Source: Candidatus Acidiferrales bacterium (GTDB lineage: Bacteria > Bacteroidota > Ignavibacteria > Kryptoniales > JAKASW01). Taken from it: a stretch of DNA of 47,104 bases. Below are positions 2,028-10,535 of the stretch, in pieces. Positions within the stretch are counted from its first letter, which is position 1, and the number at the start of each line of letters is the position of its first letter. A program made the position numbers and the translations under genes. The notes below the pieces were generated by a model, which was not told where the DNA came from, searched no databases, and was given only the letters and a program-made list of their open reading frames with translations. The stretch lies in the NCBI GenBank assembly GCA_035515795.1, contig DATJAY010000022.1, positions 1 to 47,104 of the forward strand, in the 5' to 3' direction.

Positions 2028-4049
2028 ATGTCAGCGGGGCGAACGGAAATACAAGACGTAGAGACACAAAATCATATTTCTCTTCCTGATAATGCATTCA
2101 AAGAATTAGAAGACGGCGAAGAATACCGGCCGATAATGTGTCCGACAAAAACTTTTCCCGAAGTGACACCATGGTCTGTCGGATGGGGGCTCGTGATGGC
2201 CGTGCTGTTCTCGGCGGCTGCCGCGTATTCGGGATTGAAGATCGGCCAGGTGTTCGAAGCTGCAATCCCGATTGCGATACTTGCCGTCGGCGTCACCGGA
2301 CTTGCGCGCAAACCGGGCGGTCTCGGACAAAACGTTATTATCCAATCTATCGGCTCGTGTTCAGGGAGCGTCGTGGCGGGAGCGATTTTCACAATTCCAG
2401 CATTATACATCCTCGCATTGCCTGCAAATTATTTCCGGATGTTCATGGCATCGGCACTTGGAGGCTTTGTCGGTATTCTGTTCCTGATTCCATTCCGCAA
2501 ATATTTTGTCAAGGACATGCATGGCAAGTTTCCGTTTCCGGAGGGAACCGCGACGACAGAGATTCTAGTCGCCGGAGAAAAGGGCGGGAAGGAAGCCATG
2601 GTGCTCGTTATCAGCGGAGTGATCGGCGGCGCATTCGATTTCATGTTCAGCGCATTCGGCTGGTGGTCGGAAGTAATAACGTCAAGAATGATCCCGTGGG
2701 GACAGGCGTTGTCGGACAAGTTCAAGATGGTTTTAAAGATCGATGTCTCTGCCATGGTACTCGGACTCGGATATATCATTGGATTGGAATACTCGGCGAT
2801 CATCGTCGCAGGATCGTTCTTATCATGGTTCGTTCTGGTCCCGCTTGTTCATGAAATCGGTCAATATCTGACAACTCCTGTCGGGACCACCGCGGCGAAG
2901 CTGATCTCTCAAATGAGTCCGGAGGAAATTTTCAGGAGTTATGTGAGACAGATCGGCATCGGCGGAATAGCGATGGCCGGGATCGTCGGAATTATTAGAT
3001 CATCTAAAATAATTGCGGGCGCATTCAAGCTCGCGTACAGAGAAATAGTTCACCGTAAGTCAGCAGAAGATGCGGCAGCCTCGCGCACCCAGACCGACGT
3101 CAGAATGCTCTGGGTGGTCACTCTAATTCTCTTAGCCGGGATAGCAATTTTTTCTTTCTTCGTCGTTGGCGTCGTGCCGACTGCCGGGCAGGCGCTCGTG
3201 GCTCTGCTGGTAGTGATGATCATATCGTTTCTGTTCACGACAGTTGCGGCAAATGCAATTGCCATCGTCGGAACAAATCCTGTTTCAGGCATGACGTTAA
3301 TGACGCTGATCCTTTCTTCGGTTGTCCTCGTGCAGATCGGGCTGACCGGACAACCCGGGATGCTGAGTGCGATGATAATTGGCGGAGTTGTGTGCACGGC
3401 CCTTTCCGTCGCAGGATCATTTATAACCGATCTCAAGATCGGTTATTGGCTTGGCTCGACTCCGAAGAAACAGGAGACGTGGAAATTTCTCGGCGTGCTT
3501 GTATCCGCTGCGACGGTCGGCGGAGTAATAGTAATTCTGAACAAAGCTTATGGTTTCACAGGCGACAACGCACTCGTTGCCCCGCAGGCCAATGCCATGG
3601 CGGCGGTTATCAAACCGCTGATGTCGAATGCTCAAACACCCTGGGTTCTGTACATCGTGGGTGCGATGATAGCTCTGCTACTTGTGATCCTTAAAGTCCC
3701 GCCGCTCGCGTTTGCACTCGGCATGTATATCCCGCAGGAACTGAATACTCCGCTGCTCATCGGCGGCATTATTGCATGGTTCGTTTCTACGCGCAGCAAA
3801 AACGAGAAGTTGAATACGGCTCGTCTGCATCGTGGCACACTTATCGCCTCAGGTTTTATTGCCGGCGGAGCGCTCCTGGGTGTTCTGAATGCCTTCCTGA
3901 AATTTATCGATCAGCAGTGGGCTTTCGGCTACAATAATTGGTACAATGCGCGCTGGGCAGGATCGACAAGCGGCGAGATCGTCGGGCTGGTAATGTTTCT
4001 CGTCCTTTGCGGCTACGCGCTCTGGGATTCGATGAGAGGGAAGGAATGA
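2028..4049 (+). CDS. OPT family oligopeptide transporter
   Basis: An inner-membrane, proton-coupled importer of the OPT/YSL superfamily (small peptides, or metal-chelate substrates in some members). The 673-residue protein is a string of hydrophobic helices after a 45-residue cytosolic N-terminus. Family marks are AAAAYSGLKIGQVFEAAIPIAIL near residue 64 (residues split by the first two helices), the GGLGQNVIIQSIGS segment, FPEGTATTEIL after helix 5, and NPVSGMTLMTLI in the second half. It follows pepT in the same direction, which supports a peptide substrate. The translation start is set by the strong ribosome site just upstream. No break or odd composition was seen. Confidence 0.92.
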   Translation: MSAGRTEIQDVETQNHISLPDNAFKELEDGEEYRPIMCPTKTFPEVTPWSVGWGLVMAVLFSAAAAYSGLKIGQVFEAAIPIAILAVGVTGLARKPGGLGQNVIIQSIGSCSGSVVAGAIFTIPALYILALPANYFRMFMASALGGFVGILFLIPFRKYFVKDMHGKFPFPEGTATTEILVAGEKGGKEAMVLVISGVIGGAFDFMFSAFGWWSEVITSRMIPWGQALSDKFKMVLKIDVSAMVLGLGYIIGLEYSAIIVAGSFLSWFVLVPLVHEIGQYLTTPVGTTAAKLISQMSPEEIFRSYVRQIGIGGIAMAGIVGIIRSSKIIAGAFKLAYREIVHRKSAEDAAASRTQTDVRMLWVVTLILLAGIAIFSFFVVGVVPTAGQALVALLVVMIISFLFTTVAANAIAIVGTNPVSGMTLMTLILSSVVLVQIGLTGQPGMLSAMIIGGVVCTALSVAGSFITDLKIGYWLGSTPKKQETWKFLGVLVSAATVGGVIVILNKAYGFTGDNALVAPQANAMAAVIKPLMSNAQTPWVLYIVGAMIALLLVILKVPPLAFALGMYIPQELNTPLLIGGIIAWFVSTRSKNEKLNTARLHRGTLIASGFIAGGALLGVLNAFLKFIDQQWAFGYNNWYNARWAGSTSGEIVGLVMFLVLCGYALWDSMRGKE

Positions 4050-8135: not shown

Positions 8136-8528
8136 GGAGATTTTCTTCCATTTAGTTCGTGGTTGAAAACTTTTTCTCTGCGATGTAGAATATAGTTTGT
8201 GAATAGGAAAGTTAAAAAGGAACACTTGAGTTTGTCGCGCATCTGAACCATCCTCCTCCAATCTGAGTTTTGCCCGACGCTATTCACGATGATCCGATTT
8301 GACACGCGAGTGTCTTGTCGGCGACTTCTCAGAACCTGCAAAGCCCTGTGTGCATTCAAAAAGCAAATGTGGAATGTCTAAGAAGAATTGAACGTGCTGT
8401 TGCATTACCTTACCCGGTAGCGTGTCCGTTTGTCGGAGACAGGCTCAAAAATAATTTTTGCTTTCGGAATTGTCTTCTCAATCGATGAAGCGCTATTCAA
8501 GAATATTTAAGAATCGTTTAGATATCTA
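8136..8528. other. Intergenic stretch between the GH3 gene and the IS1595 element
   Basis: These 393 bases hold no convincing gene. They should carry the promoter of the minus-strand GH3 gene, but I could not fix one. A weak imperfect hairpin (GTGTCCG/CGGAGAC, about 8422-8440) is followed by an AT-rich stretch and might end transcription; this is not secure. The last eight bases (8521-8528) are the left copy of the IS target duplication. Confidence 0.5.
8521..8528. repeat. Target site duplication, left copy (GATATCTA)
   Basis: Identical to 10423-10430 and directly outside the left inverted repeat. The 8-bp length fits the IS1595 family. Confidence 0.95.
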
Positions 8529-8549
8529 CATGCTTATCGGGTTTGGTCA
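8529..8549 (+). repeat. IS1595-type left terminal inverted repeat (21 bp)
   Basis: Begins CATGCTTATCGGG and ends TTTGGTCA. It is the exact reverse complement of 10402-10422. The stop codon and last codons of the left passenger gene lie inside it. Confidence 0.95.
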
Positions 8550-9034
8550 CTTATTTTCAAAATTTGTTCACAGGGAAGGAGTTTTGGGTGTTTATTCAGA
8601 TAGGGTATAACCCAAGATTCAAAATCAAACCAATACTCTATCGGTTGTCCAAACTCCGGATCGATTGGAGATATTCTTTTTATAATTCCGAGCTTGCTAA
8701 ATTCAATAGCCTCCCTATCTCTTTCGCTTGCTTTAAATGGATGAACATTCCAGTAAAGCCGATAACACAACTGAGCTTTGCCGGTCGCCGAAAGCCTCTT
8801 CGTGAAAATCTTTTTCACGGATTGTCTATACAGGAGATACCCCAATGATACGAATATTAATAGGAATGATATGCGTATTGGTATTAGATAAATTTGCGAG
8901 AGGTGAAATACTTCCGCGATTTCCGAGCTTACCAATTCAGCCACACTTAGCAGAAGGACTATTGGAACTTCTTTCAGGAGTTCTTTTCGTGTTGCTATTA
9001 TCATTGATACTACGTTCTTGGTTTTCATTTCCAT
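8534..9034 (-). CDS. Passenger membrane protein of the IS1595 element, unknown function
   Basis: Not recognised. The frame opens at a GTG (9043); ATGs at 9034 and 9028 are also possible, and the one at 9028 has AAGG at good spacing, so the start is uncertain. The product is about 165 residues: a short basic N-terminus, two hydrophobic helices (VPIVLLLSVAELVSSEIAEVF and IYLIPIRISFLLIFVSLGYLLY), then a soluble C-terminal half of about 100 residues (TGKAQLCYRLYWNVHPF, EAIEFSKLGIIKRISP) that could be a small winged-helix-like fold. The layout of two helices plus a cytosolic domain loosely recalls superinfection-exclusion SieB-like proteins; this is a guess. Its last codons and stop fall in the left inverted repeat, so it has evolved as part of the element. 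It starts only about 11-26 bases from the divergent transposase. Confidence 0.65.
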   Translation of the reverse strand: MEMKTKNVVSMIIATRKELLKEVPIVLLLSVAELVSSEIAEVFHLSQIYLIPIRISFLLIFVSLGYLLYRQSVKKIFTKRLSATGKAQLCYRLYWNVHPFKASERDREAIEFSKLGIIKRISPIDPEFGQPIEYWFDFESWVIPYLNKHPKLLPCEQILKISDQTR

Positions 9035-9054
9035 TGCCTTCACTATATTAAGAC

Positions 9055-10065
9055 ATGCCTGACTTTCCTAAGTCCATATTTGACTTTACGAAACGCTTTT
9101 CCGATGAGCGGAAGTGCTTCGAGTATTTGCAGCAAATTAGATTTCCTGATGGAGTGCATGATATACGAGACGGGAAAACAAAACCTTCAAGTTTCATTTC
9201 TACCCGCAATTTATGGGTTTTCCCTGACGGATACCAACAAAGCATAACTGTCGGAACCGTCATGGAACAAACACACATGGAACTATCTATTTGGTTTCTC
9301 GGGGCCTATTTGATGGCAACGCTAACCCCTGGAGTTTCCGCCCGTCAATTCGCAAGGCAAGCTGGACTTCACTACGAAACAGCGTACATGCTTTTGATGA
9401 AACTAAGAGCGGGTTTGATTAACCCTTTCCGAACAAAACTCAAGGGCGTTATCGAAATCGACGAGTCTTATATTGGCGGGAAAGTGGAAGGCAAACACGG
9501 CCGTGGTGCTGAATCCAAGGCGGTTGTTCTCGGGGCCGTCGAAGTTATAGATACTTCCAAAAAGAAAATCGGAGGCCGTCTCAGATTGCGAAAAGTTTCA
9601 TCTCCATCGGGCGAAAACATTCTCAAGTTCATTGAAGATAACATCGAAAAGGGATCTGTTCTTGTAACGGACGGCTGGAAGGGATATAACGCAGTAACAC
9701 GCCATGGATATGAAAGGAGAATCGTTGAAGGGGAAGATACAATCGAAGTGGCAGCTCAATTGGTTCACATTCACCGAGCGTTTTCCAATTTGAAAACATG
9801 GATCAACGGAACTCACCACGGAGTTTCAAGGAAACATCTTCAAGCATACCTAAACGAATTTGTTTTCAGATATAATCGGAGGCGTGTTCCATTTGAAGCG
9901 TTTAACGCAATACTTGGAATTGGAAGTATTAGAGAAGCACCAACTTATCGTGGACTATACAAAGCAGGAGAAATATATGGCTGGATACATCCGAACCCGA
10001 AAAGGCCCCGAAGCCGTTCTACGGTCAATCCGAGTGATGCTTCGGGTAATGCTAAAATTCACTAA
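9055..10065 (+). CDS. IS1595 (ISXO2-like) family transposase
   Basis: A DDE-type enzyme that moves the surrounding element. The ISXO2-like catalytic domain is complete: IEIDESYIGGK (first Asp), a second Asp in VLVTDGWKGY, and the family end HIHRAFSNLKTWINGTHHGVS and FRYNRR, which carries the last acidic/Asn-type position. Before it, TVGTVMEQTHMELSIWFLGAYLM and the RQFARQAGLHYETAY helix-turn-helix are normal. The N-terminal zinc-ribbon region aligns in spacing, but all four cysteines are missing: the first pair reads D-I-R-D-G and the second V-F-P-D-G. The 336-residue frame is intact. No good ribosome site precedes the ATG, which lies close to the divergent passenger gene; expression is probably low. 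Confidence 0.93.
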   Translation: MPDFPKSIFDFTKRFSDERKCFEYLQQIRFPDGVHDIRDGKTKPSSFISTRNLWVFPDGYQQSITVGTVMEQTHMELSIWFLGAYLMATLTPGVSARQFARQAGLHYETAYMLLMKLRAGLINPFRTKLKGVIEIDESYIGGKVEGKHGRGAESKAVVLGAVEVIDTSKKKIGGRLRLRKVSSPSGENILKFIEDNIEKGSVLVTDGWKGYNAVTRHGYERRIVEGEDTIEVAAQLVHIHRAFSNLKTWINGTHHGVSRKHLQAYLNEFVFRYNRRRVPFEAFNAILGIGSIREAPTYRGLYKAGEIYGWIHPNPKRPRSRSTVNPSDASGNAKIH

Positions 10066-10082
10066 CCGTGAGATAAAAAACC

Positions 10083-10373
10083 TTAGCCGTTCCAGTAATC
10101 AAAAAAAGTACTCGCCAAAATCGTATCGCATCCGTAATCCCCATCATGCGCTTCTAAATGGCAACGTTCGGGGGGATTCAAACATAAACAGGCGCAGTTA
10201 GCAAGCCTATGATCCTTACTATCTCCATTTACATGATGAGGCTGCCAAGCTCCTTTAAGGCTGGGTTTTCGATGCGATTTGACAAGCGTTTTGCCACACA
10301 TCGCACACAATCCGTGCTGTCTTTTAAAGGCTTTTTGCGCTATATATTCAGGAAAACGTTCACGTTTGCTCAT
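10083..10373 (-). CDS. HNH endonuclease, passenger of the IS1595 element
   Basis: A 96-residue single-domain HNH nuclease. It has a zinc-knuckle CAMCG near residue 22, the HHVNGDSKDHR segment with the catalytic His, and a closing CLCLNPPERCHLEAH with the Asn and His of the HNH motif and the second cysteine pair. It lies tail to tail with the transposase, 17 bases apart, and its start is 28 bases inside the right inverted repeat, so it belongs to the element. As I recall, HNH genes have been reported as passengers in some IS1595-group elements; what they do for the element is unknown. It could help insertion or nick a target. The family call is secure, the role is not. Confidence 0.85.
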   Translation of the reverse strand: MSKRERFPEYIAQKAFKRQHGLCAMCGKTLVKSHRKPSLKGAWQPHHVNGDSKDHRLANCACLCLNPPERCHLEAHDGDYGCDTILASTFFDYWNG

Positions 10374-10401
10374 TTTATCAATCTAATCTTCCTTTATTTA
10401 A

Positions 10402-10422
10402 TGACCAAACCCGATAAGCATG
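10402..10422 (-). repeat. IS1595-type right terminal inverted repeat (21 bp)
   Basis: Exact reverse complement of 8529-8549; on the plus strand it begins TGACCAAACCCG. Confidence 0.95.
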
Positions 10423-10430
10423 GATATCTA
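10423..10430. repeat. Target site duplication, right copy (GATATCTA)
   Basis: Identical to 8521-8528. The next six bases (10431-10436) are TTGACA, a consensus -35 hexamer. Confidence 0.95.
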
Positions 10431-10535
10431 TTGACAATAGCTGAAAAATTGTTAGATTACTTAAGAACTTTTAATTTAAAATGATTTAACTTTATTAAGT
10501 AAGAGAGGGGTTCGACATGTTGCTTAAGAATTTTG

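Follow-up and report, generated by a model that had tools for sequence, protein, structure and literature searches.

The element at 8529-10422 of the window (the whole stretch of 47,104 nucleotides that was analysed) is very probably a complete transporter insertion sequence (tIS) of the IS1595 family, which belongs to a distinct zinc-ribbon-less lineage and carries two genes as hitchhiking cargo. The element is new but of a type already described, the cargo-carrying IS1595-type tIS, and does not amount to an entirely new system. A DDE domain, terminal inverted repeats and an A/T-rich 8-bp duplication place it in the IS1595 family, and two passenger genes within IS-type ends place it among the tIS. 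The element and its surroundings comprise the following features; the element and its ends were located by direct reading and a repeat search, and the duplications by direct reading and duplication pairing.

8521-8528, no strand: left 8-bp target-site duplication, GATATCTA
8529-10422, plus strand: whole element, 1894 bp
8529-8549, plus strand: left terminal inverted repeat (IRL), 21 bp, CATGCTTATCGGGTTTGGTCA
8534-9034, minus strand: left passenger, 166 aa from ATG at 9034 or 169 aa from GTG at 9043; predicted membrane protein with two helices
9055-10065, plus strand: transposase, 336 aa, with the DDE_Tnp_IS1595 domain at residues 128-274
10083-10373, minus strand: right passenger, HNH-nuclease-like protein, 96 aa, with C23-x2-C26, H46-H47, N59 and C64-x6-C71-H72
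10402-10422, minus strand: right terminal inverted repeat (IRR), 21 bp, identical to the left
10423-10430, no strand: right 8-bp target-site duplication, GATATCTA
10431-10458, plus strand: promoter-like TTGACA-16-TAGATT in the flank outside the element, upstream of the glutamate synthase gene and directly abutting the duplication

The earlier note had described a complete IS1595-family element with exact ends, and the boundaries hold to the base: the terminal repeats are identical at 21 of 21 positions, and the same 8 bp stand on both sides of the 1894-bp unit. By rough arithmetic that leaves the abutting exact 8-bp repeat aside, a perfect 21-bp inverted pair would be expected by chance within 2 kb with a probability of about 1e-6 or less. 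The open transposase frame of that description was recovered intact, its product covering the IS1595 models, as were the two genes on the opposite strand, whose predicted products are the HNH-nuclease-like protein and the two-helix membrane protein. The host genome contains one copy of the element, together with one distant IS1595-like transposase (27% identity). The 21-bp end had no match in the viral contigs searched.

Residues 73-276 of the transposase span the entire NCBIfam IS1595 model NF033547 (E=4e-53), and the protein matches the catalytic domain PF12762 (DDE_Tnp_IS1595) of Pfam with E=7e-36. Its putative catalytic residues are D136, D206 and a third site that probably lies near H240/N245-K247. 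The N-terminal region of the window transposase lacks the zinc-ribbon cysteines, and none of the four is present in any of the five lineage transposases with an available N-terminus, whereas the ribbon (two C-x2-C pairs) is kept in ISAcr1-type, Rhodococcus and most phylum sequences, the nearest outgroups included. All IS1595 groups except IS1016 have an N-terminal zinc finger (PMC8101967). Because IS1016 also lacks it, the missing ribbon is compatible with membership of IS1595, which stands; we claim no zinc-bearing subgroup for the element. The lineage transposase gene is longer than that of the IS1016-type ISApl4, which measures 654 bp (PMC12561309).

In a maximum-likelihood tree of 43 sequences, none of them from IS1016, the lineage transposases formed one clade (support 100/100), which shares a branch with the zinc-bearing ISAcr1-type proteins. 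Absence of the ribbon requires four changes on this tree, or three if L027 is left out; this sequence, recovered without its N-terminus, and that of G396 C38, which is partial, are labelled ribbon-less only through incompleteness. Loss of the ribbon is therefore recurrent, and the idea that it is unique to this lineage is ruled out. Two more IS1595-like clades of the phylum (L004, L005 and L012; L014, L016, L018 and L029) are missing the zinc-ribbon cysteines in whole or in part, apparently through independent losses. Close relatives of the transposase are scarce: a scan of 84,980 species, which relies on exact short peptides and misses many relatives, found three, the best 77% identical. Within the host genus (13 genomes), G396, G397 and G400 encode transposases with 57-77% identity to that of the window, and broken copies are present in G400 and G403.

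The left passenger is the sole open frame across its stretch and has the best codon-usage score among the six frames; an open frame as long as its 166 codons arose in none of 2000 shuffles of the left arm. Its stop codon TAA (8536-8534, minus strand) falls inside the left inverted repeat, which encodes the C-terminus ...DQTR. A homologue in G404 is 27% identical over 150 residues, near full length (E=1.3e-6). This distant relative, the only one found elsewhere in the host genus, has a chromosomal setting with no recognisable ends. On G404 C86 (L110 1483-2254), a gene for an 89-aa one-helix protein immediately precedes it in the same orientation; no inverted ends or transposase were found nearby, and the relative had no match in plasmids and one insignificant match in phages. 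The window protein had no match in Pfam up to E=10, no family in PHROGs, no match in plasmids and one weak partial match in the phylum sample. A likeness to SieB-like superinfection-exclusion proteins was not borne out by the Pfam search or by a viral fold search, which returned nothing at E<=0.001 with a poor query model (mean pLDDT 53).

The right passenger matches the phage HNH endonuclease profiles of PHROGs (best E=2e-5) and, weakly, the HNH family of Pfam (E=0.2). Zinc cysteines and H-N-H catalytic residues are present (C23/C26, H46-H47, N59, C64/C71 and H72), and residues common to two other HNH proteins are retained. Its codon score does not set it apart from the opposite strand, and its structure model is poor. 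One viral relative is 40% identical over 53 residues; searches of plasmids and phages gave no match, and the phylum sample two weak partial matches. A weak match to ZorE among the PADLOC defence profiles (E=1.8e-4) probably reflects the shared HNH motif.

The insertion leaves the promoter-like TTGACA at 10431 intact, with zero spacing, and displaces everything upstream. The call of a putative promoter at 10431-10458 leans mainly on conservation, because a promoter scan of the site found promoter-like sequences to be no commoner than in shuffled sequence; two relatives, G396 and G399, share upstream sequence with the window only over the 77 bp of 10431-10507. As the left flank is not conserved in relatives, the genus genomes aligned only to the right of the insertion, and none offered an alignable empty site. 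Because the element is also single-copy, it is the ends and the duplication that suggest that the window copy has moved.

The 21-bp end was sought, allowing no more than two mismatches, in 294 genomes of the class. Such ends turned up in 5 of the 13 genus genomes (the host, G396, G397, G400 and G403), with a single match, at two mismatches, outside the genus; in the genomes searched, the lineage was found in this one genus only. Ends were paired by requiring exact 8-bp duplications on both outer sides. Nine such duplications surround elements of the lineage, several across contig breaks, where the duplication suggests that the two ends belong together. By direct count the nine are about 85% A+T; IS1595 members usually have 8-bp duplications (PMC8101967), and an A/T-rich 8-bp target-site duplication is the norm of the family (PMC8101967, PMC12561309). 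The elements other than that of the window are as follows.

G397 C143/C176, across contigs: duplication TAGAATAA; a 227-aa two-helix protein at one end, the start of a different gene at the other
G400 C4/C66 and C5/C70, across contigs: duplications TTATAAAA and TTCATGAA
G400 C18, 1643 bp: duplication TTCCACTA; a 110-aa two-helix protein
G400 C39, 1379 bp: duplication AAAATTAA; 88-aa and 51-aa one-helix proteins
G400 C40: a 142-aa two-helix protein, its stop inside the inverted repeat
G396 C3/C14, across contigs: duplication TTTGAAAA; a 39-aa one-helix protein and a 91-aa protein
G396 C19 (L092 2344-2980), 637 bp: duplication TTTTATTA; no transposase, but both ends and a membrane protein of 199 aa with two helices
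G396 C21/C29, across contigs: duplication TTCTGTAA; on C21, a 147-aa protein with no predicted helices
G396 C38, with the closest transposase: 66-aa and 50-aa one-helix proteins

Immediately within each end, the C4/C66 and C5/C70 copies of G400 agree in sequence, and each of the four contigs breaks off 125 bp into the element, as expected of a recent repeat that broke the assembly. The 637-bp element of G396 may have been moved in trans by a related transposase. Some relatives show decay, with only the passenger tail left on G403 C66 and the transposase broken on G403 C8 and G400 C73. Inside the G400 C40 element, beside its 142-aa passenger, a frame like the start of an IS200/IS605-type transposase was noticed by eye (L073 3926-4108), which suggests a nested insertion. 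Homology between that passenger and the membrane protein of the window was not established (BLASTP E=0.29, shuffle Z about 2). Judged by predicted helices, the lineage passengers are mostly small membrane proteins; an enrichment of membrane proteins among them is no more than suggestive, given that 13 of the 33 large frames of the window are also marked by this hydropathy test. In three related elements (L032 671-823, L091 about 2935-3090 and L090 about 3681-3801), a gene for a 39-51-aa one-helix protein starts at or just after the transposase stop, with a TAATG overlap in two of the three, which suggests translational coupling. The 50-aa and 51-aa proteins, both starting in this way, are homologous (shuffle Z about 10).

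These comparisons change what is to be regarded as the unit of interest. The earlier note had proposed that the pair of passengers around the transposase may be a new arrangement. The pair is indeed seen only here, but it is a one-off and not a conserved unit, since sister ends enclose other passengers and a search of the other 12 genomes of the genus did not find the HNH gene. That note had also named, as evidence against its reading, a finding that every other copy has these ends but lacks the two passengers; this is what the four other genus genomes with such ends present as regards the pair, and not as regards the element. Cargo next to both ends is probably not peculiar to the window element either, to judge from G397 C143/C176, whose halves are joined through their duplication. 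What deserves description is a transposon lineage with changing cargo, rather than the pair.

Cargo-carrying members of the family were already known, as the earlier note had said: according to PMC11891212 (citing Siguier et al. 2009), the tIS with passenger genes include ISNha5 of the IS1595 family. The window element resembles ISNha5-type tIS in its IS1595 DDE domain, inverted ends, A/T-rich 8-bp duplication and passengers unrelated to transposition. It differs in its missing zinc ribbon and in its cargo: ISNha5 carries a transcription regulator, whereas here a membrane protein with two helices and an HNH-like nuclease flank the transposase. The closest transposases in the plasmid collection, 41-42% identical and on the neighbouring tree branch, are those of ISAcr1-type IS1595 elements of Acidiphilium (NC_015178 and NC_015181), which keep a CPxC...CxxC zinc ribbon, in contrast to the window lineage. 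Mobile insertion cassettes are passenger-only elements; the 637-bp element of G396, with both ends, an 8-bp duplication, a membrane-protein gene and no transposase, is like them, whereas the window element encodes its own transposase. The term itself appears in passages of PMC3129680 and PMC6542083.

From family knowledge and the nine exact duplications, we suggest that the transposase would recognise the 21-bp ends of the 1894-bp unit and insert it at an A/T-rich target through an 8-bp staggered cut. Because the lineage transposases have no N-terminal zinc ribbon, DNA binding would have to use other parts of the protein, probably the helix-turn-helix region. The two minus-strand genes would travel as hitchhiking cargo, the ends and the transposase persisting as the interior genes vary between elements. 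As the passengers are replaced in relatives, they probably take no part in transposition. It is distinctly unlikely that they instead serve it, with the HNH or the membrane protein regulating or assisting the transposase: their tight packing against the transposase gene and the small one-helix genes that begin right at the transposase stop, or a few bases from it, in three relatives, two of them homologous, would fit such a role, but passengers vary among elements with near-identical ends, and a needed helper should be conserved, whereas the HNH gene did not turn up in the other 12 genomes of the genus. Highly improbable is the view that the minus-strand frames have no coding function or are decaying remnants, which would make the element an ordinary IS1595 insertion sequence with no functional cargo, a reading that agrees with the codon scores of both passengers (below that of the transposase), the absence of a Pfam family for the membrane protein and the visible decay in relatives, but that conflicts with the shuffled left arms, the near full-length G404 homologue, the profile matches and retained residues of the HNH protein, and the other open passenger frames in the same slots of relatives.

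For the hitchhiking genes themselves, we propose with low confidence that they are accessory genes for the survival of the host or the element, one encoding an HNH enzyme that cuts DNA and the other a small protein anchored in the membrane; a role in phage exclusion is speculative. It is unlikely that this genus-restricted, zinc-ribbon-less IS1595 lineage as a whole consists of exchangeable carriers of small membrane proteins and nucleases, that these products would shield the host or the element from phages and competing elements, and that their genes would travel as minimal defence cassettes of one or two genes, in some cases lacking a transposase.

In summary, the lineage offers a compact case of insertion sequences that keep their ends and transposase while the cargo changes, a passenger-only form included, and the cargo families are largely undescribed. 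It lets one ask how very small transposons gain and swap genes. In addition, some lineages of IS1595-type transposases seem able to do without the zinc ribbon as a DNA-binding module, to judge from its repeated loss.
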